Of a stretch of 64,000 nucleotides of DNA, positions 36,837 to 57,116 are shown in pieces. Location: the NCBI RefSeq assembly GCF_003228315.1, contig NZ_CP029693.1, positions 2,675,501 through 2,739,500 of the forward strand, written 5' to 3'. The position numbers and the translations under genes are program-made. Source of the stretch: Pseudomonas putida (lineage in GTDB: Bacteria; Pseudomonadota; Gammaproteobacteria; Pseudomonadales; Pseudomonadaceae). The notes beneath the pieces were generated by a model. It did no database searches. It saw nothing but the letters and a program-made list of their open reading frames with translations, and had not been told where the DNA came from. Every line of letters begins with the position of its first letter. The first letter of the stretch is position 1.

Positions 36837-38966
36837 TCAGCCGTTGGGCCCTACTGTCGCAACGATGGTCACTTGCTTGTTGTCCGGAATTTCCTGGTAA
36901 GCCAACACATGGATTCCGGGAACCGCCAGTCGGCCAAAACGCGAAAGCATCGCGCGAACCGGACCGGCCACCAGCAGAATCACCGGTTGACCTTGCATCT
37001 CCTGACGCTGCGCCGCTTCGATCAACGAGCGTTGCAGCTTCTCGGCCATGCTTGGCTCCAGCAGAACGCCCTCTTCCGAGCCTTGTCCTGCCTTCTGCAG
37101 ACTATTGAGCAATATTTGTTCCAACCTTGGCTCCAGCGTGATCACTGGCAGCTCGGAGTCAGTCCCTACAATGCTTTGCACGATGGCGCGGGATACGCCG
37201 ACGCGCACCGCGGCCACCAAGGCGGCGGTATCTTGACTCTTGGAAGCGTTGTTCGCGATGGCCTCGGCAATGCTACGAATGTCCCGCACCGGCACCTGTT
37301 CGGCCAGCAGCGCCTGCAGCACCTTGAGCAGTTGCGACAGCGACAGCACGCCCGGCACCAGCTCTTCGGCCAGCTTCGGCGAGTTCTTCGCCAGCAATTG
37401 CATCAACTGCTGGACTTCTTCGTGGCCGATCAGCTCGCTGGAGTGCTTGTACAGAATCTGGTTCAAGTGGGTCGCAACCACGGTGCTGGCATCGACCACG
37501 GTGTAGCCGAGCGATTGCGCCTGGGCACGCTGGCTGATTTCGATCCACACCGCTTCCAGCCCGAAAGCCGGATCTTTGGCGGTAATGCCATTGAGCGTGC
37601 CGTAGACCTGGCCCGGGTTGATCGCCAGCTCACGGTCCGGATAAATCTCCGCCTCGGCCAGGATCACCCCCATCAGGGTCAGGCGATAGGCACTCGGCGC
37701 CAGATCGAGGTTGTCGCGGATGTGCACGGTCGGCATCAGAAAGCCCAGGTCCTGAGACAGCTTCTTGCGCACGCCCTTGATCCGCGCCAGCAGCTGACCA
37801 CCCTGATTGCGGTCCACCAGCGGAATCAGGCGATAGCCCACTTCCAGGCCGATCATGTCGATCGGCGTCACGTCATCCCAGCCCAGCTCCTTGGTTTCCT
37901 GGGCGCGGGCCGGCGATGGCAGCAGTTCCTGCTGGCGCTTGACCTCTTCCAGCGCCTGCACCTTGACCATGTTCTGCTTGCGCCAGAACAGATAGGCGCC
38001 ACCAGCCGCCAGGGCCGCCATGCTCAGGAAGGAAATGTGCGGCATGCCCGGCACCAGCCCCATCACCGCCATCAGGCCAGCGGAGACGGCCAAAGCCTTG
38101 GGCGAGGCGAACATCTGGCGATTGATCTGCTTGCCCATGTCTTCCGAACCGGAAGCACGGGTCACCATGATCGCTGCAGCTGTCGATAACAACAGTGATG
38201 GCAATTGCGCCACCAAACCGTCACCGATGGTCAACAGCGCGTACACCTTGCCGGCGTCGGCGAAGGTCATGTTGTGTTGGAAGATACCGACCGCCATGCC
38301 GCCGATCAGGTTGATGAACAGAATCAGCAGGCCGGCGATGGCGTCACCACGGACGAACTTGCTGGCACCGTCCATGGAACCGTAGAACTCGGCTTCCTGG
38401 GCCACTTCCGAACGACGGGCCTTGGCCTGGTTCTGATCGATCAGGCCGGCATTGAGGTCGGCGTCGATCGCCATCTGCTTGCCGGGCATCGCATCGAGGG
38501 TGAAACGCGCGCTCACCTCGGAAATACGCCCGGCGCCCTTGGTCACCACGACGAAGTTGATGATCATCAGGATCGCGAACACCACGATACCGACCACGTA
38601 GTTACCGCCGATCACCACCTCACCGAAAGCCTGGATCACCTTGCCGGCGGCGGCGTGACCGTCCTGGCCGTGGAGCATCACCACCCGCGTGGAGGCCACG
38701 TTCAGCGCCAGTCGCAACAGGGTCGCCACCAGCAGGATGGTCGGGAACACTGCGAAGTCCAGCGGCCGCAAGGCGTACACGCAGACCAGCAGCACCACGA
38801 TCGACAGTGCGATGTTGAAGGTGAAGAACACGTCCAGCAGGAACGGCGGGACCGGCAACATCATCATCGCCAGCATGACCAGCAGCAACAGCGGCACGCC
38901 CAGATTGCCTCGGCTGAGGTCCGCCATGTGCGTGCGTGTCGTGTTGAGTAACTGAGAGCGATCCAC
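36837..38966 (-). CDS. flhA: FlhA, flagellar export gate protein
   Basis: A 709-residue protein of the type III export gate. The N-terminal half has eight membrane segments with the conserved FHIPEP-family loop (ARFTLDAMPGKQMAIDADL). The C-terminal half is the cytoplasmic substrate-docking domain. A sigma-54 element lies about 60 bases upstream. In most pseudomonads flhA follows flhB closely; here 11 kb intervene. Confidence 0.96.
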   Translation of the reverse strand: MDRSQLLNTTRTHMADLSRGNLGVPLLLLVMLAMMMLPVPPFLLDVFFTFNIALSIVVLLVCVYALRPLDFAVFPTILLVATLLRLALNVASTRVVMLHGQDGHAAAGKVIQAFGEVVIGGNYVVGIVVFAILMIINFVVVTKGAGRISEVSARFTLDAMPGKQMAIDADLNAGLIDQNQAKARRSEVAQEAEFYGSMDGASKFVRGDAIAGLLILFINLIGGMAVGIFQHNMTFADAGKVYALLTIGDGLVAQLPSLLLSTAAAIMVTRASGSEDMGKQINRQMFASPKALAVSAGLMAVMGLVPGMPHISFLSMAALAAGGAYLFWRKQNMVKVQALEEVKRQQELLPSPARAQETKELGWDDVTPIDMIGLEVGYRLIPLVDRNQGGQLLARIKGVRKKLSQDLGFLMPTVHIRDNLDLAPSAYRLTLMGVILAEAEIYPDRELAINPGQVYGTLNGITAKDPAFGLEAVWIEISQRAQAQSLGYTVVDASTVVATHLNQILYKHSSELIGHEEVQQLMQLLAKNSPKLAEELVPGVLSLSQLLKVLQALLAEQVPVRDIRSIAEAIANNASKSQDTAALVAAVRVGVSRAIVQSIVGTDSELPVITLEPRLEQILLNSLQKAGQGSEEGVLLEPSMAEKLQRSLIEAAQRQEMQGQPVILLVAGPVRAMLSRFGRLAVPGIHVLAYQEIPDNKQVTIVATVGPNG

Positions 38967-39027: not shown

Positions 39028-39043
39028 TGCAAAAAGCTTTCCA
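39028..39043 (-). promoter_or_regulatory. Candidate sigma-54 promoter of the flhA operon
   Basis: On the minus strand it reads TGGAAAGCTTTTTGCA. GG and GC are separated by exactly 10 bases, as in -24/-12 promoters, and the TTGCA half is perfect. The start codon of flhA is about 60 bases downstream. RpoN with FleQ control of flhA is known in P. aeruginosa; the assignment here rests on the pattern and position. Confidence 0.6.
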
Positions 39044-39100
39044 ACTTTTGTGGAAGATTGAAATAGAGGGGGTTGCAGATGGATCTGTACTGTCCGGGCC

Positions 39101-39204
39101 GGCCTCATCGCGGGCAAGCCCGGCTCCCACAATGATCGGGGCTGCCCGCTGAAATTGTGATCGACACAAAACCTGTGGGAGCCGGGCTTGCCCGCGATGA
39201 GGCC
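39101..39204. repeat. REP doublet of a second class, perfect 31-base arms
   Basis: Positions 39101-39131 (GGCCTCATCGCGGGCAAGCC, then CGGCTCCCACA) are the exact reverse complement of 39174-39204. The core GGGCAAGCCCGGCTCCCAC differs from the GAGCAGGCTCGCTCCTAC class elsewhere in the window. It lies in the 347-base gap between flhA and the glycan island. Nothing else in this gap apart from the sigma-54 element was recognised. Confidence 0.88.
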
Positions 39205-39313
39205 GGATCTGCCAACCCAAAAATCAGGAGCATCGGCACATGGAAGGCACGGTGTTATCGCTCCGCGCGCGGCAGTAAAACCCAGCGGCGCGCGTGATCC
39301 CTCCTCTGCTTCC

Positions 39314-42300
39314 TCAGTCGGGCAGCCAGACCTTACGCCACGACAATACCGCGTCGTCGTCCAGCATCCAGTCGCGACGCACCGCCTCACGCAAGGCATC
39401 ACCCGCACGGGCCGTTGCATCCAGGTCAGCAAGATGCATACGAATGGCCTTGACCCAGTCCTTGAAGCGGTTTCTCACTCGAGTGACCGGCAGGTCGCCC
39501 TGGTAGCAAACCAGATCACTGCACACCACCGGATAACCACACGCCCCGTACTCCAACAAGCGCAGATTGCTTTTGCATTCGTTGAACAGATTCTGCTCCA
39601 CCGGTGCCACCGCCAAATCCAGATTCAGGCTGGCCAGTGCGGCCGGGTAGAGGCTGATCTCGACTCCGCTATGGAACTCCTTCACATAGGGCCGCAGATT
39701 GTCCGGGCACATGCCAAAGAAGACCCAGTCCACTTCATTCGCCAAAGCCTTGACCACATCGCCAATCAGTTCCAGATCGCCTGTGTGGCTATTTCCTCCC
39801 GCCCAGCCCACTCGCGGTTTGGCACTGACTCGACGCTGACTGACCGGCAACGCCCCCCACCAGCGTGGATCGAGCCGGTTTTCCATCACCCTGATATCCG
39901 GATGGAAATCGCCTAATGCCTCGGCCAGTGTCCCGGTCGATACGACAAAGCGATCCACATACGACAAGGCGCGACGCAAGGTGCGCACGATGTCCTTGGG
40001 CATTTGCCCTTGATGAATGCTTTTTAGCGGCAGGTTGGGCAGATAATCATCCAGTTCAAGAACCTTGAAGGCTTTGGAGAAGGTCTGCACGCGGCGCATG
40101 TTGTTGAGCTGCGCTTCGCTGATTTGCCGTTGAAAGATGATTGCATCAGTCGCAAGTCGCTCCAGCTCAGTCAGCGGCAAAAACACATCCGACTGAACGC
40201 CGTCGATCAAACCGGCGTTCTTCTGCGCATTGAACGGTTGGATCACCCGATATTGACCACAGCCACCCCGATCGGCCGGGTGTACCAACACTGTCGGCAC
40301 GGGCCGCCAGACCAGCGGACGCCAGCACAGCTGAGGGTCGGCCAACTGGAAGCCATCACTGCCCTGCATCAATGAAAAATTGAGATTGTAAGCCGGGTCG
40401 CGGGCCAACACGGGGATCCAACGCTCATACAAGGCCTCTTCAACCGCTTCTCCTCTCGGCTCGGCCGGCACGCTGTGCATGACTAGCGCGCGAGGCGTCC
40501 AGACGGTCAGATAGCCTTGCTCAGCGACTCGAAGACACAAATCGATGTCCGCTCCCGACTCTGGGAAATGCTCCGCATCCAGGCCGCCGACACCTTCGAA
40601 CAGCGCCTTGCGCACCATCAGGCAGGCATCGGAAACCGCACTGCACCCTTGATCGACCAGCAAACGGTTCATGTATCCGGCTGCATCGATGTGCTCACCC
40701 GCAAACGCCGAAGCGGCTGCGCCCTGCAGGCCAAGGATCAACCCGGCATGGGTAATCCGGCTGTCGCTGGAGAGGGTTTTCGCCCCGACAATCCCTACTT
40801 CCGGACGCTGCGAATGGTTGAGCAACTCACCCAGCCACTGCCCCTGGAGAATGGCGGCATAGGAACGCAAGAACAGCAGGTACTCGCCTTCGGCATGTTG
40901 CGCACCGATGTTGTTCGCCGTTGATCGATCCACGGCGTGCGTCAGACCCAGTACACGGATGCGATTGCCGGAGATCTCTTCGATCGCTTGCAGCCACTGC
41001 CGAGCCTCGTCTGACTGGCTGGCATTGTCGACGATCAGTACTTCGTAATAGGGGTGAAGCGTATGTTCCAGAATGCTGAAAATACAGCGCTGCACCGCTG
41101 CCAATTCATCGTTCATCACCAGGACAATCGAGACCAACGGCTGCAACTCATGACCGTAATCAATCTGGTATTGGCCTGGCCGGGAGCTATTGATCCGTGA
41201 CCGCTCGTAGCCTCGCAACTTGAGATGCTCGGCAATCGCACGCCGCTCATCCTCGTTTTCGCGAAACACTTGAGGCTGACTGATCAACAGCGGTTCGGAC
41301 ACATGCCCAAAACCCGCGATCCCACCCTGATTGATCAAGCGTAAAATCAGCTCGAACTCCAGCGCCTGCGGGAAAGTCGCGTCGAAACCACCGGCCTCCA
41401 GAACCACCCCACGCCTGAATATCCAGTTGTGAGCCATGGCCGCCGGGAAACTGAGCAAATAATCCAGATTGAAATCAGGTCGCAAAGTGACGCCAAAGTC
41501 GCCATCGTTGTGACGCAGGACGCCATCACAAAACACCGCGCGGCAATCGGAATCGGGTAACAGTTCCAACCCGGCAATCAGCAAACCGCTGCGAGTGAAT
41601 TCATCTCCCGCCTTGGCCAACAGGCACCACTCGAACGCCTCTTGCCGCAACAATTGATTGATTTGTGCGACGTAGTCCGACTGCAAGGGGATGAAATGCA
41701 GTTTCTCGTCCGTGGACGCCTGCGCAGACGCATCAGGCGTCAACACCAGCACCTTCAGCGCGCCGTAAAAATTGTGCTCCGCTGTCAGGCTCTGCAAGGT
41801 GCGCATCAACGCCTGAGTTTCACCCAGCAGATCCAGGACGATGACTCCAATCAACGGGCCGCCACCGCTCGCTTGCAGGTAGCGTTCGATCATCTGGTGT
41901 TGAACTGGGCTTGGCACCCGTGCAGCAATCCAGTGCCGCTGCTGTTGTGCCGAAAGCTCCCGGGCATAGCTGACCTGCAGCTGCTGCAGGATGTCGACTT
42001 GTTCGATGACCCCTTCGCCATTCAACAGAGAAACCGATACCAGGCGATTGTCCGGACCTGCCCGGCTCCAGCCGAGCTCTCGAAGCGTGCGCTTGAAGTC
42101 GGCATGCCCCTGATTACCAATACCGGGCTGGTCGCGACCCAGTTGACTACCTTGCTCGGGAGAGACGCGAAAATCCGTCAAAGGCTGCTTGAGCAAGGCC
42201 AGGTTGCCCTTTTGCAAGAGCTTCACATACATCGCCAAATCGCCGACCCAGTAGATCAAACAACCATTGAGCGACATCAAGTCGTCACCTAAGGCCAATA

Positions 42301-42835
42301 GATCTTCGCGTCGACAAAGTACGCAACTCGGTTCACCGATGAAGTTGAGTGTATGTTCACCAAGGAAAGAGGTCAGCTGCGGGCCATTGATCACGACGTC
42401 GGTCGTAAAGGGGAACGCCGTAGCAATGTTATCCGGCAGCTGTGCCCCATCAGGGCCCACTATCCGGCGGCGCGACGAAGCGAGAGAAATAGAGGGATCG
42501 CCATCCATGGCAGCTGCAAGCTCAGCCACGCAGTCTGGATGCAGAACATCATCGTCATGGAGAAATTTTACGTACTTGCCGCTGGCAACTTTTATGCACT
42601 CAATCGCATTGAAAAGCTCGCCACGCTGGTGTTCGTTAAACACATAACGAATAGAAACATCCGTAGTCTCTTGGTAATGGCGCACCAATGCACCGATTAC
42701 ATCGGTGCGTGAGTCATCACAGACGACAATTTCCAAAGGCCTATAGGTCTGCCGACAAGCACTGGCCAGCGCCGCGTCGAAATACTGCGTTTTGTAGGCA
42801 GGAATAACCACACTAACCAGTGGCTTGTCGTTCAT
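39314..42835 (-). CDS. Large multi-module glycosyltransferase, probable flagellin glycosyltransferase
   Basis: A 1173-residue protein. Module 1 (about 1-240) is a GT-A family 2 domain with LVSVVIPAYKT and a DDD motif at 94-96 (FLHDDDVLHP). Module 2 (about 326-550) is a degenerate GT-A-like region. Module 3 (about 565-800) is a second recognisable family 2 domain (LVSIVLVMNDE, IVDNAS), but the usual NDD is replaced by RSY in YLLFLRSYAAI. Module 4 (about 845-1173) resembles a GT-B type transferase (VGWAGGNSHTGDL, LLEYGACGYPVVCSD). The ATG at 42835 has AGAAGG 5 bases upstream. Last gene of the island. Flagellin as acceptor is inferred from position. Confidence 0.82.
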   Translation of the reverse strand: MNDKPLVSVVIPAYKTQYFDAALASACRQTYRPLEIVVCDDSRTDVIGALVRHYQETTDVSIRYVFNEHQRGELFNAIECIKVASGKYVKFLHDDDVLHPDCVAELAAAMDGDPSISLASSRRRIVGPDGAQLPDNIATAFPFTTDVVINGPQLTSFLGEHTLNFIGEPSCVLCRREDLLALGDDLMSLNGCLIYWVGDLAMYVKLLQKGNLALLKQPLTDFRVSPEQGSQLGRDQPGIGNQGHADFKRTLRELGWSRAGPDNRLVSVSLLNGEGVIEQVDILQQLQVSYARELSAQQQRHWIAARVPSPVQHQMIERYLQASGGGPLIGVIVLDLLGETQALMRTLQSLTAEHNFYGALKVLVLTPDASAQASTDEKLHFIPLQSDYVAQINQLLRQEAFEWCLLAKAGDEFTRSGLLIAGLELLPDSDCRAVFCDGVLRHNDGDFGVTLRPDFNLDYLLSFPAAMAHNWIFRRGVVLEAGGFDATFPQALEFELILRLINQGGIAGFGHVSEPLLISQPQVFRENEDERRAIAEHLKLRGYERSRINSSRPGQYQIDYGHELQPLVSIVLVMNDELAAVQRCIFSILEHTLHPYYEVLIVDNASQSDEARQWLQAIEEISGNRIRVLGLTHAVDRSTANNIGAQHAEGEYLLFLRSYAAILQGQWLGELLNHSQRPEVGIVGAKTLSSDSRITHAGLILGLQGAAASAFAGEHIDAAGYMNRLLVDQGCSAVSDACLMVRKALFEGVGGLDAEHFPESGADIDLCLRVAEQGYLTVWTPRALVMHSVPAEPRGEAVEEALYERWIPVLARDPAYNLNFSLMQGSDGFQLADPQLCWRPLVWRPVPTVLVHPADRGGCGQYRVIQPFNAQKNAGLIDGVQSDVFLPLTELERLATDAIIFQRQISEAQLNNMRRVQTFSKAFKVLELDDYLPNLPLKSIHQGQMPKDIVRTLRRALSYVDRFVVSTGTLAEALGDFHPDIRVMENRLDPRWWGALPVSQRRVSAKPRVGWAGGNSHTGDLELIGDVVKALANEVDWVFFGMCPDNLRPYVKEFHSGVEISLYPAALASLNLDLAVAPVEQNLFNECKSNLRLLEYGACGYPVVCSDLVCYQGDLPVTRVRNRFKDWVKAIRMHLADLDATARAGDALREAVRRDWMLDDDAVLSWRKVWLPD

Positions 42836-42900
42836 AAAACCCTTCTTGTTTGCTAACGCTAACGCGCACTCAATAACAGCCGCCGACCTACCCAAGTAGC

Positions 42901-44136
42901 TCAATAAAAATAGAGGCAGGTATCCCAGCGTTCTTCCGTATGGTGACGAATGCCTATTTTGTAATCGCCGCGCAGACCTTCGATGAATTTGGAAATATCC
43001 AACAAGTCAGAAGCCCTGTGATAGGCCGAGATCGCCATTTTTGGGCGTCCATGAAGAATATGTCCCTGCGCGCCTTTCAAGGTATCGAGCTCTGCGCCCT
43101 CAATATCCATCTTGATCAGCGTCGGGGAATCATCAAGCAGACTGTCCAGGCGTCGAACCGCAACATTCCTGCAAATGGCCTGATCCGTAGGGGCTGTCAA
43201 AAGATGACCACCATGCCCCCCCTCATGCAGGAATGGCATTTCTCCATCCAGACTGCCCAACGCGCAGCCCAACAACTCAATCACACCCTTTTCGCCCCTG
43301 TCAGAGCGGCCTGGATAATCCTTGATAAAAGAGGCGATTGTCTCCCGATTGACCTCATCGGGTTCGATCATCCATATCTTCTTGAAGACACCATCCGTCG
43401 CATCGATAAAGGCTTTGGTGGATTCTGCAATCGAGGCACCGCAATCAGCAAAGCGCTCACTTTGATTGGGCAGCCACAGGCCCGATCGGAAATAGAGTGT
43501 CAGATACGGTTTGGCCGCATTCAGAATCCACTCGGGATTACAGGTCAGGTGGCTGAGCAAAACGCTAAACAACGTAAAACGAGAGTAGTCGTCACCCAAA
43601 CGATGGCTGAGCGCGATAAATTCGGCCGCATGCGAGGCGATATAACCGCCCCAGTCATCAATGCGATGATCGGTACAAGGGCTTATTGAAAGCAGACGCA
43701 GAGCCTGCTCGAAGTTCAACATCGGAATGACGTGCTGCAACGTCAGATTCTTGAAATAACGGCGTGCGTAGTCATAGCGGCAGCCATTGACAGTAATGAC
43801 TCGCTGGCCGCTCGACAACTTCAATAAAGCTTGCGAAGTGATAATGGGAACGCCATGAAAAGCAGCGCCGTCTTTTGCCTTGAAATCGTCGACCACCCCA
43901 ACGATCTTTACTCGCCCAGCGGCCTCATTAATAAAGAGCTGGGAGAATTGGGTTGTACCGAGCAACACAACTTGCGTCGATGCCCCTTCGGACTCGTAAA
44001 CATGGCAGGCCTCAGCTGGTAGGCAGAACCAGGGGCTCACTTGATATGAAGACACCGCTTGCAGGAAGGTGGCCATGAGATTTTCATAACTACCAGACAC
44101 TTCCAGACTCACCGATCCGTTAGAACCGCTCTGCAT
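42901..44136 (-). CDS. FkbM-family methyltransferase with N-terminal nucleotide-binding-like domain
   Basis: A 411-residue protein. Residues about 50-115 look like a Rossmann-type unit (VVLLGTTQFSQLFIN, VKIVGVVDDF, HGVPIITSQALL). The C-terminal half (about 225-411) is an FkbM methyltransferase, with motif I FADCGASIAESTKAF and the family hallmark LIKMDIEGAELDTLKGA. It probably O-methylates a sugar hydroxyl, as a methyltransferase does in P. syringae flagellin viosamine. GGGAGG lies 4 bases before the ATG. The sequence is visibly richer in A+T than the flagellar genes around the island. Confidence 0.8.
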   Translation of the reverse strand: MQSGSNGSVSLEVSGSYENLMATFLQAVSSYQVSPWFCLPAEACHVYESEGASTQVVLLGTTQFSQLFINEAAGRVKIVGVVDDFKAKDGAAFHGVPIITSQALLKLSSGQRVITVNGCRYDYARRYFKNLTLQHVIPMLNFEQALRLLSISPCTDHRIDDWGGYIASHAAEFIALSHRLGDDYSRFTLFSVLLSHLTCNPEWILNAAKPYLTLYFRSGLWLPNQSERFADCGASIAESTKAFIDATDGVFKKIWMIEPDEVNRETIASFIKDYPGRSDRGEKGVIELLGCALGSLDGEMPFLHEGGHGGHLLTAPTDQAICRNVAVRRLDSLLDDSPTLIKMDIEGAELDTLKGAQGHILHGRPKMAISAYHRASDLLDISKFIEGLRGDYKIGIRHHTEERWDTCLYFY

Positions 44137-44190
44137 GTTGCCTCCCGAAAAATAGAATGTGACGCCGATGCACCAGAGTTAAAAAGAAAA

Positions 44191-44811
44191 TTATATTTTT
44201 AAGATCCTGGCGCCATCGGGCATTAAGCGATCATAAAAAGATTGATCCGGAATTAACGCTGGCAGTTGCCCGCCCAACAACCATTCGCAATGGTGGCCGA
44301 CTTTTGTTCCCTCAAGCGCCAAACTTCCGGTGGAAAGCGTAGAGCCTTTGCCAATTACCACTTCCCGCCCCAAAGTCACCCCGGGAAACAGCGTCACGCA
44401 TGAACCCAAACGCACCGAGCGGTCCATTGTGACCTGGCGATCCAACCAGCAACCCAGCCCCACGACGCTTTTATCGGCAAGGTTGCATCCTGCTCCAATG
44501 AAGACATTCCCCATGAGCTGGACACCCTCATCGACAATCGCCTTGGGTGAGACCAGATTGAATAGTCGATAGCCTGCCAAACGAACTTGCGCAATCAACT
44601 TGTGCCTTGAGTAATTGACTGCACGTTCATCCAGCGCTACAAAAACCTCGGTATCGCTCGACACGTAACTTGCAAAAAAATCATCGAGCTTAAAGCTATA
44701 ACGATCTGCCGAAGACAGCGCCCACCCTACAAAGGTCATTCCCAGATCGTTCGCTACACGGCAGGCGGACTCAAGTGCATCGCCCTCGCCCAAAACAACG
44801 TAGTTCGTCAT
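44191..44811 (-). CDS. Left-handed beta-helix acyltransferase-like protein (NeuD/PglD fold)
   Basis: A 206-residue protein with an N-terminal Rossmann-like part (MTNYVVLGEGDALESACRV) and a C-terminal hexapeptide-repeat region (about 85-180; VQLMGNVFIGAGCNLADKSVVGLG). At the place where PglD-type enzymes carry the catalytic His in a His-x-x-x-IG pattern, this protein has TMDRSVRLGSCVTLFPG without a histidine. It may therefore be an altered or non-catalytic partner of the acyltransferase at 45994. It overlaps the Rieske gene by 4 bases. Confidence 0.75.
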   Translation of the reverse strand: MTNYVVLGEGDALESACRVANDLGMTFVGWALSSADRYSFKLDDFFASYVSSDTEVFVALDERAVNYSRHKLIAQVRLAGYRLFNLVSPKAIVDEGVQLMGNVFIGAGCNLADKSVVGLGCWLDRQVTMDRSVRLGSCVTLFPGVTLGREVVIGKGSTLSTGSLALEGTKVGHHCEWLLGGQLPALIPDQSFYDRLMPDGARILKI

Positions 44812-45941
44812 ACGGTTTCCCCCAGTACATGGTTTTTATACCAGAGGTGCTGCTGAACGATATGGGCCTCGTATTCTCCGTGCATAAACCGACGCGAATG
44901 AGCTCCCAGGCCATCCTGCAAGCGCTCAAGGACAACAGTATCCTCCGCGATAACCGTCCGTTCCCCACGAATGAGCGTCGATAGCAACGCTGTGAAGTCT
45001 GTACGTTCATCCTTTCGCGTTGCCGTCATCATCCACAGGTGGTAATCGGTGACGCCTGGCGATACCGGGTCGTATTGCTGCAGTAGAAAGTGCTCACCCT
45101 TCACACTACAAAAGTTCACATTAGGGTATATAAACCAGTTGTAGTAGGCATGGTCATTACCGTACTTATCACACAACGAGGCAAACCAGTTCTCATAAGG
45201 CTTGATCGAAGCTTTCGTATTATAACTTAGAGACTCGAGCCCAGGAGCCACGCCTGCGTCTATTAGCTGTAGCACCTTGGAAGGTTCTAGAGACTCCACA
45301 ACAGGAAGCTCTTTCACCATCTGGCTCATTGCAGGCATAAAAGTTTTAGAGTGAACGAAAGGCACATGGTTATAGTCTTTGACGTTCTCCATATTCAACT
45401 TCCAGTTATATCTGACTCGATGACAACTGTAAATTATCTGGGAGTCCAAAAAAGACGACACTTCTTGCAATTGCTCGAGAAAATTCTCGGAAAACTGTTC
45501 CGTCAACGCGATCGGATTTTCCGAAAAATTAATAAAAAGCAACTGCCCTACTTCTTCCACTTGCAGCTTCTTCAGGCAAATTTTCTCTCGCTCTGCCGCA
45601 CTGAACTGATAAAGCCCATCATTTGGCATACCACGAAGCTCGCCCTCAGCCCCGAAAGACCACGCGTGATAAGGGCAGACCAATGGGCGCTTGCCAGCGT
45701 TGCTGGTCTGAATGGGCGATAGCCGATGCGGGCATTCATTGACGAAGGCACGAATACCGGCCTCGGTCCGCTGAACAAGAATCGGTGTACCTGCAACCTT
45801 TCGAGTAAAGAACTGGTTACGCTCGCGCACCATCGAGCTGAAACCGACAAAGCTCCACAACTTGCCAAAAAGCTTCGCGCGTTCCAGCGTGAGCGTTTCT
45901 TCACTGATGTAGTGCTTTCCATCCAAAGCATGACGCGGCAT
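44808..45941 (-). CDS. Rieske non-haem iron oxygenase, alpha-subunit type
   Basis: A 377-residue protein. The N-terminal Rieske domain has C70-P-H72 and C89-P-Y-H92 for the 2Fe-2S cluster. The C-terminal catalytic domain has the mononuclear iron motif ENVKDYNHVPFVH (Asp-x2-His-x4-His). Such enzymes hydroxylate, demethylate or desaturate. No reductase or ferredoxin is nearby, so it must borrow one. The ATG at 45941 is preferred, with GGGTAAG 5 bases upstream; a GTG at 45974 is possible. Its substrate is presumably the sugar or its acyl chain. Confidence 0.85.
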   Translation of the reverse strand: MPRHALDGKHYISEETLTLERAKLFGKLWSFVGFSSMVRERNQFFTRKVAGTPILVQRTEAGIRAFVNECPHRLSPIQTSNAGKRPLVCPYHAWSFGAEGELRGMPNDGLYQFSAAEREKICLKKLQVEEVGQLLFINFSENPIALTEQFSENFLEQLQEVSSFLDSQIIYSCHRVRYNWKLNMENVKDYNHVPFVHSKTFMPAMSQMVKELPVVESLEPSKVLQLIDAGVAPGLESLSYNTKASIKPYENWFASLCDKYGNDHAYYNWFIYPNVNFCSVKGEHFLLQQYDPVSPGVTDYHLWMMTATRKDERTDFTALLSTLIRGERTVIAEDTVVLERLQDGLGAHSRRFMHGEYEAHIVQQHLWYKNHVLGETV

Positions 45942-45993
45942 AAAACTTACCCGTAAAGATTCTTGACCAGCCACCGCGGACCCGAGGCTTTTA

Positions 45994-46629
45994 TCACTTC
46001 TTGTTGAATATCACTCGTGCCGGGTTACCGACCACCGTCGCTCCCGCCGGGACATCATTGAAAACCACTGCCCCCATACCAATCACGGCGTCTTCACCTA
46101 CGCTGACGCCACGGGCGATCATGGCCCCGGAGTTGATGACTACCCTGTTTCCGACCTTTACATAGCCTGCCAACAGACACCTGGGCGCGATATGAACGTA
46201 ATCGCCAATAACGACGTCATGACCGATCATGGTTTCCTGATCGATAAACCCGTAATCGCCCATCTTGCTGTCAACGCCGCAAGTAACGTCATAACCAAAA
46301 AAAGTCGGCCCCCAACTGCTACGGGCACCTAATTGGCAGCGCGTTCGGATATCAACAAACTTTGCACCTTTGTCGAGCAGGAGCTTCACCTGCTTTTGAC
46401 GGCTCGATGGATCGCCAATGGCGACAACGAACAAGTGAGCTGGCTCGGGCTCAAAGTGCTCGGGATAGCCTAACCAGGGGTAATACAGAGACTCAGAAAC
46501 TACTTCGGGGCCTCTTTCGTCAACAAAACCGCCAATCACCCAATCGATACCGTGGGAGTAGTCAACCTGTAGTTGGGCCAATACCTGACGCCCAAGCCCG
46601 CCGGCGCCCAAAATAATTAACTTCTTCAT
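45994..46629 (-). CDS. NeuD/PglD-family sugar O- or N-acyltransferase
   Basis: A 211-residue protein with an N-terminal nucleotide-sugar-binding Rossmann unit (KKLIILGAGGLGRQVLAQL) and a C-terminal left-handed beta-helix. It keeps the catalytic histidine in ETMIGHDVVIGDYVHIAPR and ends with the usual GMGAVVFNDVPAGATVVGNPARV. By analogy with PglD and VioB it would acylate the 4-amino group of a dideoxy sugar. AAGGAG lies 7 bases before the ATG at 46629. It is probably the working acyltransferase of the island. Confidence 0.85.
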   Translation of the reverse strand: MKKLIILGAGGLGRQVLAQLQVDYSHGIDWVIGGFVDERGPEVVSESLYYPWLGYPEHFEPEPAHLFVVAIGDPSSRQKQVKLLLDKGAKFVDIRTRCQLGARSSWGPTFFGYDVTCGVDSKMGDYGFIDQETMIGHDVVIGDYVHIAPRCLLAGYVKVGNRVVINSGAMIARGVSVGEDAVIGMGAVVFNDVPAGATVVGNPARVIFNKK

Positions 46630-46648
46630 GCCCAAGCTCCTTCGGCCC

Positions 46649-47416
46649 CTAACTGATCGTTAGTCCACCGTCCATCACCAGTGTTGTACCTGTTACCCAA
46701 CGGCTGGCACTTGAGAGCATGAAGATCGCGGCGTTGGCGATATCCTCAGGTTTGCCAAAGCCCAAAGGATGATCTTCAAGTTTCTGCTCCATGGAGACCA
46801 TTTTGGCTGCAGCGTCAAATAGCGGTGTTTCGACCAATGAAGGCGACAAGCAGTTGACGCGAATGCGCCGCTTGACGACCTCCATTGCCAGACACCGTGA
46901 CATGGCAATCAAGGCCGCTTTTGTTCCGGAGTAAGCGCCGACTCCGGGCACGCCGATGTGGGCAGCGATAGAGGCAATAAACAAAATTGATCCATCAACA
47001 GCCATCAGGTTGCGCTTCAATATGCCCTGACTAAGCAACATGGGAGCCTCGACGTTGATAGCTTGAACCTCTCTTAAATGGGTCTCGCTCATCATACGGG
47101 TCGGACAAAGCCGGGAAATGCCTGCGCTATGGACCAGACCATGGATCTCTGAATCAAGTGCCTTCACTACCGCTTCGCGCTCGGCAGCAACAACCAAGTC
47201 AGCCTCAATCATTCGATGAGGCAAATCCGAAATGCTCAGCAGCCCTTCAAACGTTTTTGCCAAACGATCCTGGTCACGGCCCGTGATGATTAGTTCTGCG
47301 CCCATGCGGGCGCAACTCAACGCAATGGCTTGCCCCAAACCGGAACTTGCGCCGGTTACCAACACGCGCTTGCCCGCCAAGCTAAACGGATTAAAACCGG
47401 TATCGGCACTCACCAC
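46649..47416 (-). CDS. Short-chain dehydrogenase/reductase (3-oxoacyl-ACP reductase-like)
   Basis: A 255-residue SDR with cofactor motif VLVTGASSGLGQAIA, active-site YSGTK and catalytic Ser in LFIASIAAH. The C-terminus GTTLVMDGGLTIS is standard for FabG-like proteins. No ATG fits; GTG codons at 47416 and 47413 follow GGAG at 6 and 9 bases, and an in-frame TTG is at 47428. Next to a KAS III and an ACP it could reduce a 3-oxoacyl-ACP to the 3-hydroxy form, like VioR in P. syringae. A role on the sugar is the alternative. Confidence 0.82.
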   Translation of the reverse strand: MVSADTGFNPFSLAGKRVLVTGASSGLGQAIALSCARMGAELIITGRDQDRLAKTFEGLLSISDLPHRMIEADLVVAAEREAVVKALDSEIHGLVHSAGISRLCPTRMMSETHLREVQAINVEAPMLLSQGILKRNLMAVDGSILFIASIAAHIGVPGVGAYSGTKAALIAMSRCLAMEVVKRRIRVNCLSPSLVETPLFDAAAKMVSMEQKLEDHPLGFGKPEDIANAAIFMLSSASRWVTGTTLVMDGGLTIS

Positions 47417-47458
47417 CGCATTCTCCAACTAGTGTTAACAGGTACTTTTAAGGAAACT

Positions 47459-48499
47459 TCAGGATTCGATCAGATCAGGAAACTTCGCCCCGTCGATATC
47501 GATCAAGCAGGTGCCCCATGACAAGCCGATACCGAACCCCGACATCAAGACGCGCTTGGGCCCATCTTCAAGCTGCTTGTTGATTCGAGCGGTCATGGTT
47601 ACGGGCAAAGAAGCGCCACTTGTATTACCGAAATCACGCAAGGTGGAGGGAACTTTTTCTGCCGGAAGTGCCAGTTTCTTGCGGATGGTTTCATTAATCA
47701 TCCGATTGGCCTGGTGGAAAATGAAATAGTCCACTTCTTCTTTCGAAGCATTTGCGTATTCGAGCAGTTTCTCTACCGCAGGAGGAACTCGCTGAGTCGA
47801 GAAACTCAAGACGGCTGTGCCATCGAGCTGAAGATCGACACTGCGCCGCCAGTGATCGTTTTCGTTCTCGCGGTATGGCATCAGGTGTTGAATACCAACG
47901 GGTTCGCGATGGCCGCCTACGGGCAATATGATTGCCTTGTGGCCGCTGCCGTCGCTGTTCAAATCAAAGTACATCGGCGGCGCGTCAGCACAGAACTCCA
48001 TAGCCGTCGCGGTGCCTGCATCGGAGAAAATCGGGTCGTTCATACTGGCACCGCGATCTCCGACCAGAACGAGCCCTTTCTTCACCCCGCCAGCCGCAAT
48101 CATTGACCCGAGCAGATGCAAGGCGAATGGGTAACCCGAGCACCCCAGGTTGACATCAAAGGCCAGGGTCGTATGCGCCAGGCCCAAACGATCCTGAAGA
48201 ATGATTGCAGTGGCAGGCGCGAGGTAGTCCGGCGACTGGGTCACAACAATCAGCGCATCAACTTCCTCGCGCTTCCATTCCAGACTTTCCAACAATTTTT
48301 CCGCGGCATCAAAAGCCAAATCGGAAAAACACTGCCACTCCTGTGCTAGCCGCCGAAATTCGATACCGATATTACGGACCAGCCTCTCGCGCTCTGGGCG
48401 AAGTTGTGGTTTGCAATCAGTCAGGTTGGAAATAACGCGTGTGGGGACGCAGGTTGCCATTCCAGCGAAACGCACGGATTTCAACGTAGCAAGTGGCAT
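47459..48499 (-). CDS. 3-oxoacyl-ACP synthase III (FabH-like)
   Basis: A 346-residue KAS III-type condensing enzyme with an intact Cys-His-Asn triad: Cys120 (DVNLGCSGYPFAL), His262 (YFIFHQANRM) and Asn292 (DFGNTSGASLP). It would condense a short acyl-CoA with malonyl-ACP. It lies 5 bases after the ACP gene, so the two probably form an acyl-building unit. Its context is sugar biosynthesis, not the fab cluster, so housekeeping FabH is unlikely. Confidence 0.87.
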   Translation of the reverse strand: MPLATLKSVRFAGMATCVPTRVISNLTDCKPQLRPERERLVRNIGIEFRRLAQEWQCFSDLAFDAAEKLLESLEWKREEVDALIVVTQSPDYLAPATAIILQDRLGLAHTTLAFDVNLGCSGYPFALHLLGSMIAAGGVKKGLVLVGDRGASMNDPIFSDAGTATAMEFCADAPPMYFDLNSDGSGHKAIILPVGGHREPVGIQHLMPYRENENDHWRRSVDLQLDGTAVLSFSTQRVPPAVEKLLEYANASKEEVDYFIFHQANRMINETIRKKLALPAEKVPSTLRDFGNTSGASLPVTMTARINKQLEDGPKRVLMSGFGIGLSWGTCLIDIDGAKFPDLIES

Positions 48500-48504
48500 A
48501 TCGA

Positions 48505-48726
48505 CTAACCTAGCAAGTTATAAAGATCACCGACAGTGACAGCCTTTTCCAGGTCATCCCCAGTGATTACTTTCTGGTATTCCATGTCAAACATGACGAT
48601 AACACCCAATGCCGCCAGAGAGTCCCACTCAGGCAGATTGCGCAGTTCGGATTCCATCGTCACTTCAACCGGTGTTTGAAAATCGGTGGCAGACAGGAAG
48701 TTTTCAATAAATTGTTCTTGGCTCAT
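48505..48726 (-). CDS. Acyl carrier protein
   Basis: A 73-residue acidic protein with the phosphopantetheine attachment site at Ser36 (LPEWDSLAALGVIV). It is a specialised ACP, not the primary AcpP, whose motif is DSLD. It has GGAG 7 bases before the ATG. It is followed directly by the KAS III gene, which supports the idea of a dedicated acyl donor for the sugar acyltransferase. Confidence 0.88.
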   Translation of the reverse strand: MSQEQFIENFLSATDFQTPVEVTMESELRNLPEWDSLAALGVIVMFDMEYQKVITGDDLEKAVTVGDLYNLLG

Positions 48727-48825
48727 CTTACAGCTCCATCAAATAATAAACTGCAGCAAAACATTCTTTTATCTCCCAGGAAACAGCACGTTCAAATGCC
48801 TAACCCACTCGAACAAAATGAACAA

Positions 48826-49938
48826 TCAGCCACCACCCGTGCGAATGATTGACACGATCTTCTTGACATCCGCCAACTCAAGACCAGGATAAATCGGCAG
48901 ACAAATAATTTTCCCTGCCACTTCCTCAGCATTGCTTAACGGATGTCGACGCAACTCCGCCATTTCTTTATACACTGACAACTCGGTAATCAGCGGATAG
49001 AAATAGCGACGCGCAAATATATTGTGTTTTTGTAGCAAGTGATAAAGCTGATCACGTGTAAGCCCGTACTCTTCCCCTACCAAAATGGGGAAATAGGCGT
49101 AGTTCGAAACTTGCGATGGCACAGGCGATTTCAATTCGATCCCGGGTATTGACCCCAGTTGCTCGCGATAGGAGTGATCGATTTCCTTGCGCTGCTGCAG
49201 GGCGTGATCAATATGCTGTAACTGCAAGAGCCCAAACGCGGAGTTAAGCTCACTCATTTTCCCGTTGATACCGCAGGTCACTACCGTGACCTCATCAACG
49301 AAACCGAAATTTCTCAACTGATCCACGTACAACTTGGTTTCTGCATCAGGACTGATAATGGCCCCGCCCTCAAACGTATTAAATACCTTGGTGGCATGCA
49401 GGCTTAAAACACTGAGGTCGCCATGGCGCAGAATACTGCCGCCCTTATCCTGCACGCCAAAGGCATGCGCTGCATCGTAAATAACCCGCAAGCCATGCTT
49501 ATCGGCAATACGCTGGATCGCCTCGACATCACAGGCGTTACCATAACAATGCACCGGCATAATGGCGGTCGTGTGCTCAGTGATGGCGCGTTCTATTTGA
49601 TCTGGATCAATATTAAAGGTTTGCGGATTGATATCGACAAACACTGGAGTCAGTCGATTCCAGACTAATGCATGGGCCGTGGCGGCAAAGGAATAAGGGG
49701 TGGTGATAACCTCCCCGGTCACCTGCAAGGCTTGCAGCGCCGTAATCAACGCCAGCGTACCGTTGGTGAATAACGACAGATGCCCTACACCCAAGTAACG
49801 AGCCAATGCCTGCTCTAATTCCTGGTGAAAGGGGCCGTTATTGGTCAGCCGCTTGCTATGCCATATCTGCTCGAGATAGGGAATAAACTCTTCCAATGGC
49901 GGCAAGAGCGGACTGGTAACCGAGATTATTTTTTCCAT
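48826..49938 (-). CDS. DegT/DnrJ/EryC1-family sugar aminotransferase (VioA-like)
   Basis: A 370-residue PLP enzyme with the PLP lysine Lys184 (SLHATKVFNTFEGGAI), Asp155 (YDAAHAFG) and the N-terminal HSKRLTNNGPFHQELE segment. It fits enzymes that aminate the 4-keto group of dTDP-4-keto-6-deoxyglucose, such as VioA. It is the first gene of the island, preceded by a sigma-54 element. No rmlA or rmlB is in the window, so the nucleotide sugar must come from elsewhere. VioA is the best guess; close relatives aminate other positions. Confidence 0.85.
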   Translation of the reverse strand: MEKIISVTSPLLPPLEEFIPYLEQIWHSKRLTNNGPFHQELEQALARYLGVGHLSLFTNGTLALITALQALQVTGEVITTPYSFAATAHALVWNRLTPVFVDINPQTFNIDPDQIERAITEHTTAIMPVHCYGNACDVEAIQRIADKHGLRVIYDAAHAFGVQDKGGSILRHGDLSVLSLHATKVFNTFEGGAIISPDAETKLYVDQLRNFGFVDEVTVVTCGINGKMSELNSAFGLLQLQHIDHALQQRKEIDHSYREQLGSIPGIELKSPVPSQVSNYAYFPILVGEEYGLTRDQLYHLLQKHNIFARRYFYPLITELSVYKEMAELRRHPLSNAEEVAGKIICLPIYPGLELADVKKIVSIIRTGGG

Positions 49939-50068
49939 GCAGTATTATTTCTTGTCGGACCACGCATCCCACAGAGGAATTGAATTCCCCACCGCAACTC
50001 CAGGCCATATCTGGCAGAGGCTGCGAAGTCAAAAAAATAGCTATTTCCCGGACCCCACTCACTAGCAA

Positions 50069-50084
50069 AGCAATAATCCGGCCA
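50069..50084 (-). promoter_or_regulatory. Candidate sigma-54 promoter of the glycan island
   Basis: On the minus strand it reads TGGCCGGATTATTGCT. TGGC and TTGC are 7 bases apart, so GG and GC are exactly 10 apart, the canonical -24/-12 geometry. It lies 131 bases upstream of the aminotransferase ATG and 43 bases downstream of the flhB stop. It would make the island an RpoN-dependent flagellar unit. The rest of the 188-base gap between flhB and the island has no gene. Confidence 0.6.
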
Positions 50085-50126
50085 AAATCTGAAGATATTG
50101 GGTAGCCACCCCAAAAGGTTTCCACC

Positions 50127-51263
50127 TCAAGCATCACGCCTAAGGTCTGGCGGAATCGGCAGATCATCCTTGAGCGGCTCCGGCCGCTTGCCCTTGCCCG
50201 CCTTGTACTGACGAATCTGATAGACATACGCCAGCACCTGAGCAACGGCGAGGTACAGGCCGCCCGGAATTTCCTGCTCCAGCTCGGTGGAGTAATAAAT
50301 CGACCGCGCCAGCGCCGGGGACTCCAGCAGCAGGATCTCGTTGGCTGCCGCAATCTCACGAATCTTCAACGCCAAAAAGTCGCTGCCCTTGGCGATCAGC
50401 ATCGGCGCGCCGCCCTTGTCCGGGTCGTACTTGAGCGCCACGGCATAGTGGGTCGGGTTGGTGATGACCACGTCGGCCTCGGGTACCGCCGCCATCATCC
50501 GGCGCTGGGAGATCTCGCGCTGTACCTGACGAATCCGTTGCTTGACCTCAGGCCGACCTTCCTGGTCCTTGTGCTCGTCTTTGATTTCCTGCTTGGTCAT
50601 CTTCAGCTTCTTGATGCTTTCCCACAGCTGGATCGGTACGTCCACGGCGGCGATGATGATCAGACCGCAGGCCATCCACAGCGTGCTCCAGCCAACCACC
50701 TGCAGACTGTGAGTGATCGCCCGGTCCAGCGGCTCGTGGGCGATGCGCAGCAGGTCGTCAATGTCCGACGACAGCACCACAAGAGCCACGAACAGGACGA
50801 TGAAAAATTTCGCCAGGGCCTTCAACAACTCAGCCACGGACTTGGTCGAGAACATGCGCTTGAGACCGGCGCCGGGGTTCATCCGGCTGAACTTGGGCGC
50901 CATGGTGCCGGCGGAGAACAGCCAGCCACCCAGGGAAATCGGGCCGATCAGCGCGGCCAGCAGCAAGGTGATCATCACCGGCTGAATCGCCAGCAAGGCG
51001 ATTTTCCCGGAATGCAGCAGGAAGATGCCCATCGAGCGCTGGTCCAGCACCACGTCCCGGGACAGGGAGAAGTTCAGGCGCATCAGGTCCATCATTTCCT
51101 GCGCAAGGGCACCGCCGAAAATCAGCAGCGCACTGGCACCGGCGAGCATGATCGCCAGGGTATTGAGTTCCTTGGAACGGGCGATCTCACCCTTCTCACG
51201 GGCGTCCTTTTTCTTTTTCTCCGTGGGGTCTTCTGTTTTGTCTTCGCTATCACTCTCAGACAT
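50127..51263 (-). CDS. flhB: FlhB, flagellar export switch protein
   Basis: A 378-residue protein with four membrane segments in the N-terminal part and a cytoplasmic C-terminal domain. The autocleavage motif NPTH is present (VVITNPTHYAVALKYDP). Cleavage switches export from hook to filament substrates, with FliK. It is 3 bases downstream of fliR. The N-terminus is highly charged (SESDSEDKTEDPTEKKKKD), as usual. Confidence 0.96.
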   Translation of the reverse strand: MSESDSEDKTEDPTEKKKKDAREKGEIARSKELNTLAIMLAGASALLIFGGALAQEMMDLMRLNFSLSRDVVLDQRSMGIFLLHSGKIALLAIQPVMITLLLAALIGPISLGGWLFSAGTMAPKFSRMNPGAGLKRMFSTKSVAELLKALAKFFIVLFVALVVLSSDIDDLLRIAHEPLDRAITHSLQVVGWSTLWMACGLIIIAAVDVPIQLWESIKKLKMTKQEIKDEHKDQEGRPEVKQRIRQVQREISQRRMMAAVPEADVVITNPTHYAVALKYDPDKGGAPMLIAKGSDFLALKIREIAAANEILLLESPALARSIYYSTELEQEIPGGLYLAVAQVLAYVYQIRQYKAGKGKRPEPLKDDLPIPPDLRRDA

Positions 51264-55047: not shown

Positions 55048-55548
55048 CTACTGCAATACGAAATTAGTGAAGAGCAACTGTTCGACAACCACTTTGCCGA
55101 GTTCTTTCTGCGCCACTTCCTGGACGCTGGCCGTGGCTTTCTGGCGCAGCATTTCCTGACCTACCGGGGATGCGAGCGTGGCGAAATCCTGACCGGAGAA
55201 CAGCATCACCAGGTTATTGCGAATCACCGGCATATGAACCTTGAGCGCATCCAGATCGGCCTGGTTGCGACCAAGCATGGTGATGCTCACCTGCATGTAG
55301 CGCTGGCGGCCGTTCTGGTTGTAGTTGGCGACAAACGCCGGTGCCATCGACTCGAAAATCGCCGGCTGCTTGCCCACCGGCGCCACGTCGGCGGCCGGGG
55401 CCGGCTTGCTCTGAGCGCCGTGCATGAAGTACCAGGTCGCCCCCACGGACAAACCGATCGCCAGCAGCAGGGCCACTACGATCAGGATAATCAGCTTGAG
55501 TTTGCCTTTGGTTGCGGGGTCTTTAACTGCTGCGTCGCTCTTCGCCAT
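55048..55548 (-). CDS. fliL: FliL, flagellar basal body-associated protein
   Basis: A 166-residue protein with one N-terminal membrane segment (LIILIVVALLLAIGLSVGATW) and a periplasmic stomatin-like domain. It supports stator function and torque. A sigma-54 element lies about 50 bases upstream. Confidence 0.94.
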   Translation of the reverse strand: MAKSDAAVKDPATKGKLKLIILIVVALLLAIGLSVGATWYFMHGAQSKPAPAADVAPVGKQPAIFESMAPAFVANYNQNGRQRYMQVSITMLGRNQADLDALKVHMPVIRNNLVMLFSGQDFATLASPVGQEMLRQKATASVQEVAQKELGKVVVEQLLFTNFVLQ

Positions 55549-55760: not shown

Positions 55761-57116
55761 TCAGGCGTAGTAGTCGACGGCGCTGGTGCCGATCACGCTG
55801 GTCACCGGGGCGGCGACTTCGGCAATGGCCGGGGTGAGTTCGTCGTCCATGGCGTCGAGGCGACCACCACTGGCATTGGTTCGGCCGCTCTGGCTCTGTT
55901 GCGCCTGTTCTTGCCCTTGCTGCGAACCCCGGGACTGGTCGGACACGTTGACATCCACCTGCCCCATGCCCTGCTGCGCGAACATGTCACGCAGGCGATG
56001 CATCTGCCCGTCGAGGGCTTCGCGAACGCCGGGATGAGCGCTCATGAAGGTCACCTGAGTCTGCTGGTCCGGCACCATGTTCACCCGGATATCCAGGCGC
56101 CCCAGCTCAGCCGGTTGCAGCTGGATGTCCGCCGCCTTGAGATTGGCGCTGGACAGGTACATGACCCGGTTCACCACTTCTTCGGTCCAGCCGCTCTGAT
56201 GCATGGCGATGGGCTGGTTGACCGGTATGGCGTTGGCGGTTTTCGGCGTGGCCGCTTGCGTGAGCGCCGCCAGACGGTTGGCGAAGTCATCGACACGGGT
56301 ATCGCTGCTGGCAGACTTCAAATCCTTGAGACCGTCGTCGATCAGGCCGCTGAAGGCCTTGTCACCGCCTTGGCTGGTGCTGTCCTTGCTGGTCTGCACA
56401 TCGAGCATGCTGGCCATGCCGGCGGCAAAGTTCTGCGCCGAGGTCTGCTCGCCGTCGGCCTGTGCCTGGGCGGGTGTCGGTGCGGCCTTGGGCTGCGCCT
56501 GACTGGACGCCGATACATGGCCGCTCTGCTCCATCGCCATACGGACGGCGGGCAGTGCGTCGAGTGGATCGGCTTCGGGATCGAAATCGGTGTCGGCGGC
56601 GGCAACCGCCTGCGCTGGTACCGCGGTGGCAGCGGCGACCTGAATCGGTGGCTGTTGCGGTTCGACTACCGGCTGTACAACCGGCGCGGGCACAGTGACC
56701 GTCGGCTGCACGGCCTGCAGCAGCGCAGGGTCGAGCGTCGGGTCAACCGGCGTGGTATCGGCTACGGGTGGCTGTGCTGCGTCGGCCGTCTCATCGCTGG
56801 CGGTCTGGTCATCAGACTGCGCCGGCTTTTCGGCGGGCAAGGATTTGCCGCTATCGGCAACCACCGGCTCGTCGGCGGCAGGCTTGTCATTGACAGCATC
56901 CTTCTTGCCGGCGCTGTCCGCCACCTTGTCACGCGCTGGTTTGGCCGAACCGTCTGCCGCAGGAGCAGGCTTGTTCGACGCCTGTTTGGCGTACACCTGA
57001 GCGAAGCTGGAACCCTTGTCCCCGGGCTCGGCGGCCTGTGCCACAGAATTGGCACTTGCGGCTTGAGTCTTGGCCTGCGCGGCGGCCTGAAGAAGAATAT
57101 TGGGGGTAACGGGCAT
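55761..57116 (-). CDS. fliK: FliK, flagellar hook-length control protein
   Basis: A 451-residue protein. The N-terminal two-thirds is low-complexity and rich in Ala, Pro, Gln and Asp (molecular ruler part). The C-terminal domain (about 330-420) has IQLQPAELGRLDIRVNM and HPGVREALDGQMHRLRDM, as in FliK. It is secreted and triggers the FlhB switch. It has its own sigma-54 element. A FliK-like paralogue is at 22253. Confidence 0.92.
   Translation of the reverse strand: MPVTPNILLQAAAQAKTQAASANSVAQAAEPGDKGSSFAQVYAKQASNKPAPAADGSAKPARDKVADSAGKKDAVNDKPAADEPVVADSGKSLPAEKPAQSDDQTASDETADAAQPPVADTTPVDPTLDPALLQAVQPTVTVPAPVVQPVVEPQQPPIQVAAATAVPAQAVAAADTDFDPEADPLDALPAVRMAMEQSGHVSASSQAQPKAAPTPAQAQADGEQTSAQNFAAGMASMLDVQTSKDSTSQGGDKAFSGLIDDGLKDLKSASSDTRVDDFANRLAALTQAATPKTANAIPVNQPIAMHQSGWTEEVVNRVMYLSSANLKAADIQLQPAELGRLDIRVNMVPDQQTQVTFMSAHPGVREALDGQMHRLRDMFAQQGMGQVDVNVSDQSRGSQQGQEQAQQSQSGRTNASGGRLDAMDDELTPAIAEVAAPVTSVIGTSAVDYYA

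Follow-up and report, generated by a model that had tools for sequence, protein, structure and literature searches.

What do the genes do that part flhB from flhA in the flagellar cluster of Pseudomonas putida? In the 64,000-nucleotide stretch analysed here (the window; contig NZ_CP029693.1, positions 2,675,501 to 2,739,500), flhB (50127–51263) and flhA (36837–38966) are held apart by nine co-directional minus-strand open reading frames (ORFs). The original prediction, which placed nine minus-strand genes of an accessory sugar-decoration island between flhB and flhA, was confirmed in this respect: the genes occupy positions 39314–49938 within an insert of 10,904 bp (39229–50132, minus strand). 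Our results make it likely that this insert is an acquired flagellin-glycosylation operon of the PAK-type or viosamine kind, placed at a new site, whose products would build an acylated amino-dideoxy sugar, oxidise and methylate it, and put it on flagellin.

The limits of the insert were set by comparing its gap and junctions with the same locus in G002, the nearest relative found, in which flhB and flhA are separated by only 228 bp and FlhB and FlhA are 96% and 98% identical to those encoded here. The insert enters the end of flhB, between the ancestral codon GAT and TCC TGA. In 18 of the 19 relatives with a readable flhB end the gene closes with GAT TCC/TCT TGA (30 loci were read, of which nine, ours included, showed the opposite end of the gene and two neither end); our flhB closes with GAT GCT TGA, and the displaced TCCTGATTTTT is found at the insert's opposite edge. 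A short GATGCT match is present at both edges. GC content is 0.531 within the insert and 0.623 in the remaining window. This low GC content, the 228-bp gap in G002 and the clean junction support the proposed accessory, inserted character of the island: the insert is a horizontally acquired operon, well bounded, at a new site. Neighbouring genes are spaced by 5–99 bp or overlap by 4 nt, the arrangement of a single operon. Two routes of entry were considered and rejected. A search for carriers that covered plasmids, and not phages, found no match to the insert DNA (megablast) or to its Rieske protein (tblastn, 1e-40) among 72,556 plasmid records; as for tRNA-associated integration, the window contains no tRNA and Pfam and NCBIfam find no recombinase among the nine genes.

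Pfam and NCBIfam confirmed the families of all nine genes, weakly for the acyl carrier protein (ACP), although start codons of several of the ORFs (TTG/GTG) are uncertain. All lie on the minus strand, and we give them in order of transcription. The first is a DegT sugar aminotransferase of the VioA/DesI type (48826–49938; Pfam PF01041, 1.8e-100), with DesI as its top NCBIfam match, below the family cut-off, and 2po3 as its top match in the Protein Data Bank (PDB). It is followed by a 73-aa ACP (48505–48726; NCBIfam ACP 2.3e-4, below cut-off, and no Pfam match), which is 64–79% identical to those of the nine related cassettes that have the gene whole in one locus, and by a VioS/OrfC-type ketoacyl synthase III (KAS III; 47459–48499; Pfam PF08541). 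A short-chain dehydrogenase/reductase (SDR) of the 3-oxoacyl-ACP reductase type, suited to the VioR/OrfD role (46649–47428; Pfam and NCBIfam), precedes a PglD/VioB-type N-acyltransferase (45994–46635; NeuD/PglB/VioB family, 2.4e-44, slightly under cut-off), whose best PDB match is VioB 7txp (2.2e-21) and which keeps a histidine in the catalytic position of the alignment. Aminotransferase, ACP, KAS III, reductase and VioB-type acyltransferase are thus contiguous in one gene run, the ACP being recognized by its weak family match together with its orthologues. Downstream lie a Rieske non-haem iron oxygenase (44808–45974; Pfam Rieske and Ring_hydroxyl_A); a PglD-like hexapeptide, or left-handed β-helix, protein, here called Hex2 (44191–44811), whose ORF overlaps that of the Rieske protein by 4 nt; a 411-aa FkbM-family methyltransferase (42901–44136; Pfam PF05050 and NCBIfam), in which the Pfam domain is confined to residues 231–385; and a giant soluble glycosyltransferase of 1,196 residues, OrfN/VioT-like and with an N-terminal GT2 domain (39314–42904), whose likelier start, judged by eye, is an ATG 69 bp into the ORF as listed.

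These families point to two known systems. PMC3927599 describes a P. syringae viosamine island comprising vioA, vioM, vioT, vioS, vioB, vioR and acp, flanked by genes for glutamine synthetase and a histidine kinase rather than by flhB and flhA. Six of our families correspond to vioA, acp, vioS, vioR, vioB and vioT, with VioT (1,173 aa) similar in size to our glycosyltransferase. The product, N-(3-hydroxy-1-oxobutyl)-2-O-methylviosamine carried on rhamnose, was found by mass spectrometry to be lost in vioA, vioB, vioT and vioR mutants, whereas in a vioM mutant the methyl group alone is missing. Compared by gene list and not by sequence, the island as published there has no Rieske gene, FkbM gene or second hexapeptide gene, and its VioM methyltransferase has 241 aa against the 411 aa of our FkbM-family protein. 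The same source already related the viosamine genes to those of the P. aeruginosa PAK-type island, and the PAK-type island is a better yardstick than the viosamine island, which had been proposed as the closest known design. This a-type (PAK) island, orfA–orfN, has core families in common with ours; it contains 14 genes (PMC3958885) against our nine and is sited between flgL and fliC, whereas ours lies between flhB and flhA. A comparable run in genome G511 has the order DegT–ACP–KAS III–SDR–PglD–FkbM–Rieske–Hex2–glycosyltransferase, and our KAS III and glycosyltransferase are 88% and 52% identical to its counterparts, whereas Rieske, Hex2 and FkbM are only 35%, 28% and 26% identical. The OrfN/VioT-type role of our glycosyltransferase is assigned through its identity to cassette glycosyltransferases and its linkage to fliC.

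Outside the genus, each of the nine families has a homologue in a Xanthomonas hortorum locus (L040) that is part of a flagellar cluster and lies between a fleQ-like gene, with a sigma-54 gene next to it, and fliE, whereas ours is between flhB and flhA. Identities to our proteins are 66% for Rieske, 57% for Hex2, 58% for FkbM, 81% for KAS III and 50% for the glycosyltransferase, and besides these L040 includes an additional SDR, an additional FkbM-like match, a further ORF that resembles methyltransferases and one small ORF. From its position we infer that L040 is the counterpart of the X. oryzae gigX1-10 island. All nine families also occur together between flgL and fliC in both G511 and G284, so the suggestion that this exact combination is undescribed was not borne out in kind. 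Our island is a kit known from other bacteria, moved to another place and with its genes reshuffled, and its combination of genes is not unique.

The positions of the related cassettes bear directly on their target. Matches to the island KAS III (1e-80) were found in 6 of 398 genus genomes, scoring the best five candidates per genome, and in 3 of 198 genomes of a family-wide sample that includes our own; the enzyme is 77–88% identical to 8 of the 10 other cassette copies and 65% and 68% identical to the remaining two. The arrangement flgL–cassette–fliC occurs in G511, G284, G356 and G509, and a cassette adjoins fliC in G292 (where it is cut by the contig end), in G116 and in the second G023 copy, the last two being near flagellar rod genes and motA or motB. 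The first G023 cassette (L030/L031) lies between flgE and an flgF-type gene. Altogether, 10 of the 11 cassette copies examined, ours included, are in flagellar loci; flanking ORFs were named by eye, and Pfam families confirmed 9 of 10. By several genes the G284 cassette is closest to ours, with the proviso that in these identity comparisons homologue start codons were picked by rule, some Hex2 N-termini were cut and the G509 FkbM match is partial. No match to Rieske, Hex2 or FkbM was found in the G116 and second G023 cassettes, suggesting that the six-gene core is sufficient; at these loci (L129 and L131) the core stands beside a flagellin gene and near rod and mot genes, which in G023 form a second flagellar cluster. 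G023 also encodes a further Rieske oxygenase (Pfam) beside an FkbM-like match upstream of flgE (L030:5500-7995), separate from its two cassette Rieske genes. Among matches to the query proteins, our own flgL–fliC interval holds a single ORF, a divergent KAS III-like gene (L028:12114-13043) that is 29% identical to the island enzyme and has 87–90% matches beside fliC in several relatives.

The glycosyltransferase gives a broader view of this linkage. Its family (1e-50) is present in 70 of 99 genus genomes, and in the 63 with the best glycosyltransferase and the best fliC on one contig the two are at most 30 kb apart in 58 and at most 40 kb apart in 61; our own distance is 30,014 bp. The exceptions beyond 40 kb are G064, with 32% identity, and G029. 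In G029 (L207:4434-13094) the best glycosyltransferase follows a copy of flgJ–flgK–flgL roughly 1 Mb from the best fliC match, which suggests a split or duplicated flagellar cluster. Our own genome has no second member of the family, its four other matches being weak (1.6e-10 or worse). Glycosyltransferases away from fliC in G036 and G055 were considered as viosamine islands and rejected, there being no match besides the glycosyltransferase in 17 kb each. Over nearly its full length our protein is 50–56% identical to the cassette glycosyltransferases of G023 (two), G116, G356, G509, G511 and X. hortorum, and it is 52% identical to that of G284.

It is very improbable that the operon serves a hook, hook-associated, cap or other exported flagellar protein instead of FliC. 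One genome does have its cassette after flgE (L030/L031), and our own lies about 30 kb from fliC; against this, in nine of the ten genomes whose best glycosyltransferase is at least 52% identical to ours (our own and G023 excluded) the gene is within 617 bp of fliC, the tenth (G025) having it about 23 kb away, and in P. syringae flagellin is the target of the viosamine genes (PMC3927599). The N-terminal GT2 domain retains the DDD motif in nine aligned cassette glycosyltransferases; a second GT2 match at residues 591–816 has lost the acidic motif in our protein, the C terminus has weak, below-cut-off matches to group 1 glycosyltransferase families, and residues 330–590 gave no convincing family match (GT-B-like and GT-A-like labels of these parts were assigned by eye). 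Hydropathy predicted no transmembrane segments in any of the nine island proteins, which fits a cytoplasmic glycosyltransferase acting before export.

A sigma-54-type promoter sequence, TTGGCCGGATTATTGCT (50069–50085, minus strand), lies inside the insert and ends 131 bp before the DegT start. It agrees with the consensus at 15 of 17 positions, including GG-N10-GC, and simple shuffling of the 300 bp upstream reached this score in 7 of 1000 trials; no sigma-70-type match was found in the operon leader. The pattern YTGG-N8-TTGCW occurs 10 times in the window against 2.66 expected, a count reached in 1 of 100 shuffles. Three more of these matches lie 50–62 bp before flagellar ORFs, namely flhA (39028–39044, minus strand; outside the insert, with the same 17 bases in the G002 locus), fliL (55048–55548) and fliK (55761–57116; Pfam), while the other six fall elsewhere in the window. 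By sequence match, 9 of 10 cassettes have a GG-N10-GC core (at least 13 of 17 positions) ahead of DegT, and in 7 of those 9 it is equalled by fewer than 5% of simple shuffles, although G116 and G292 are close relatives and their counts are not independent. In Xanthomonas oryzae, RpoN2 and FleQ are reported to control the flagellin glycosylation genes gigX1-10 (PMC8657755).

Beyond position in the flagellar cluster, the basis of the original proposal, flagellin is therefore a likely target because cassettes occur at several flagellar sites, the glycosyltransferase is linked to fliC and the insert contains a sigma-54-type sequence. Several observations weigh against a flagellin-glycosylation operon of this kind. 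A Zoogloeaceae cassette (contig L041, 4434-13090) has no recognizable flagellar gene in 21 kb; no sigma-54 core is found upstream of DegT in G284, and the cores in G509 and in the first G023 copy are weak, being equalled by fractions of 0.158 and 0.121 of the shuffles, respectively. G002, G046 and G088, which have the most similar flagellin sampled, do not have the glycosyltransferase family at 1e-50, so that our flagellin lineage seems not to carry it as a rule. The Zoogloeaceae contig itself carries the genes from ACP to FkbM, with no DegT or glycosyltransferase match, and downstream of them an ORF without a Pfam match and an APS kinase gene.

This Zoogloeaceae copy, together with the frequent occurrence of FkbM, DegT and hexapeptide genes in polysaccharide loci, would suit an operon whose sugar goes onto a different surface polymer (O-antigen, capsule or exopolysaccharide) and whose place in a flagellar cluster is accidental. 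We consider this unlikely, given the flagellar setting of all but one of the cassettes, the tie of the glycosyltransferase family to fliC, the sigma-54-type site in the insert and the lack of any membrane protein by hydropathy, meaning that the insert supplies no flippase, polymerase or membrane-bound initiating transferase. Nor is it probable that our strain makes no glycan, its operon having fallen silent or begun to decay since the transfer. The low GC content of the insert and the close sampled relatives without cassette or glycosyltransferase family are compatible with that outcome; all nine reading frames are open, however, the Rieske protein, the N-terminal GT2 domain and the PglD-like protein keep their motifs, and the insert has a promoter-like site. 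Flagellin glycosylation by an active operon remains our preferred reading.

What is new is the insertion site, together with the co-inherited pair of Rieske and hexapeptide proteins. Scoring the best four candidates per genome, Rieske matches at 1e-30 were found in 4 of 398 genus genomes and comprise five genes, all inside these cassettes. Across eight cassettes, Rieske and Hex2 split alike into three clades, {ours, G284, X. hortorum}, {G356, G509} and {G511, G023, Zoogloeaceae}, and their co-variation is the strongest of 15 pairs of families (exact Mantel r = 0.86, p = 0.0022; p = 0.033 after Bonferroni correction for the 15 pairs). FkbM correlates with no other family (p ≥ 0.21) despite adjoining Hex2 in our island. 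PglD also correlates with Hex2 (0.67), Rieske (0.56) and SDR (0.56), so the co-variation of Rieske and Hex2 may partly reflect shared descent by linkage. The iron–sulphur ligands of the Rieske protein (C81, H83, C100 and H103) and residues H203, H208 and D345, which we take to be the iron ligands, are invariant in an alignment of three proteins and kept in eight. Its closest solved relatives are carnitine monooxygenases; its predicted structure was poor (mean pLDDT 40) and was not used.

Hex2 has no histidine at the position of the usual catalytic histidine of PglD in any of eight aligned homologues. Thus, although the gene families first proposed are supported, the count of two acyltransferases appears doubtful. 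The Hex2 model is fair (mean pLDDT 82.7) and has a PglD-like fold; against the PDB, Foldseek gave weak matches, none better than E 0.07, and the top two are PglD-type acetyltransferases. We tentatively propose, as a possibility somewhat short of even, that Rieske and the histidine-less Hex2 are the two parts of an oxidative module dedicated to flagellin sugars, in which Rieske would act on the activated amino-deoxysugar or on the ACP-derived acyl chain and pass its product to Hex2, which would then be other than an ordinary acetyltransferase, and that the pair may be exchanged between islands, giving differing sugar end groups. This unstudied oxidative pair is the most interesting part of the island. 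In the open-access literature, covered by titles and the starts of abstracts, we found no paper on a flagellin-glycosylation locus with a Rieske protein; the primary papers on the PAK and X. oryzae islands are outside that coverage.

The site itself was compared across the genus, as the original prediction had proposed. Among the 92 of 99 genomes (ours included) in which a single contig holds both flhB and flhA, the gap between them has a median of 465 bp and is at least 1.5 kb in 22; no other gap is as large as ours, 11,163 bp measured between match ends. A genus-wide glycosylation hotspot at flhB–flhA was rejected: of the 21 other intervals of at least 1.5 kb, 15 were read, and none of these has a match to the nine proteins (blastp and tblastn, E 1e-5). 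These 15 intervals (L182–L196) indicate a variable site that often holds very large proteins, a recurrent protein of about 222 aa and small DUF6124 proteins, the last in several near-identical copies in some intervals. One example of each was scanned, and the large protein and the 222-aa protein gave no Pfam match. In our window, a long palindromic REP-like sequence, recognized by eye (39100–39225), separates the island from flhA and is not part of the insert.

The acylated, methylated and oxidised chemistry is what we infer from the families encoded. In the pathway we propose, RpoN, probably with FleQ, would transcribe the island operon along with the flagellar genes. DegT would aminate dTDP-4-keto-6-deoxyglucose supplied by the cell's RmlB, for which our genome has a match above cut-off; a 4-amino sugar is favoured because the aminotransferase is nearest to DesI (below cut-off) and the acyltransferase to VioB (PDB). 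KAS III, ACP and SDR would make a short 3-hydroxyacyl chain, perhaps 3-hydroxybutyryl by analogy, which the PglD/VioB-type enzyme would transfer onto the amino group. Rieske, with a reductase encoded elsewhere, might then hydroxylate or oxidise the acyl chain or the ring, Hex2 might act on or bind the product, and FkbM might O-methylate the sugar. Finally, the giant glycosyltransferase would add the sugar, probably via a deoxyhexose, to serine or threonine residues of FliC in the cytoplasm before export.

Flagellin glycosylation has been reported to be important for Pseudomonas virulence (PMC3927599 and PMC8036289). Our results suggest that a flagellin-decoration operon can move as a self-contained unit, promoter sequence included; in Pseudomonas and Xanthomonas alike, such units would enter differing spots of flagellar clusters, and their tailoring genes would be exchangeable. 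The island makes it possible to test whether its own sigma-54-type site coordinates the timing of sugar synthesis with that of flagellar assembly, and what effect a Rieske oxygenase has on a bacterial glycan.

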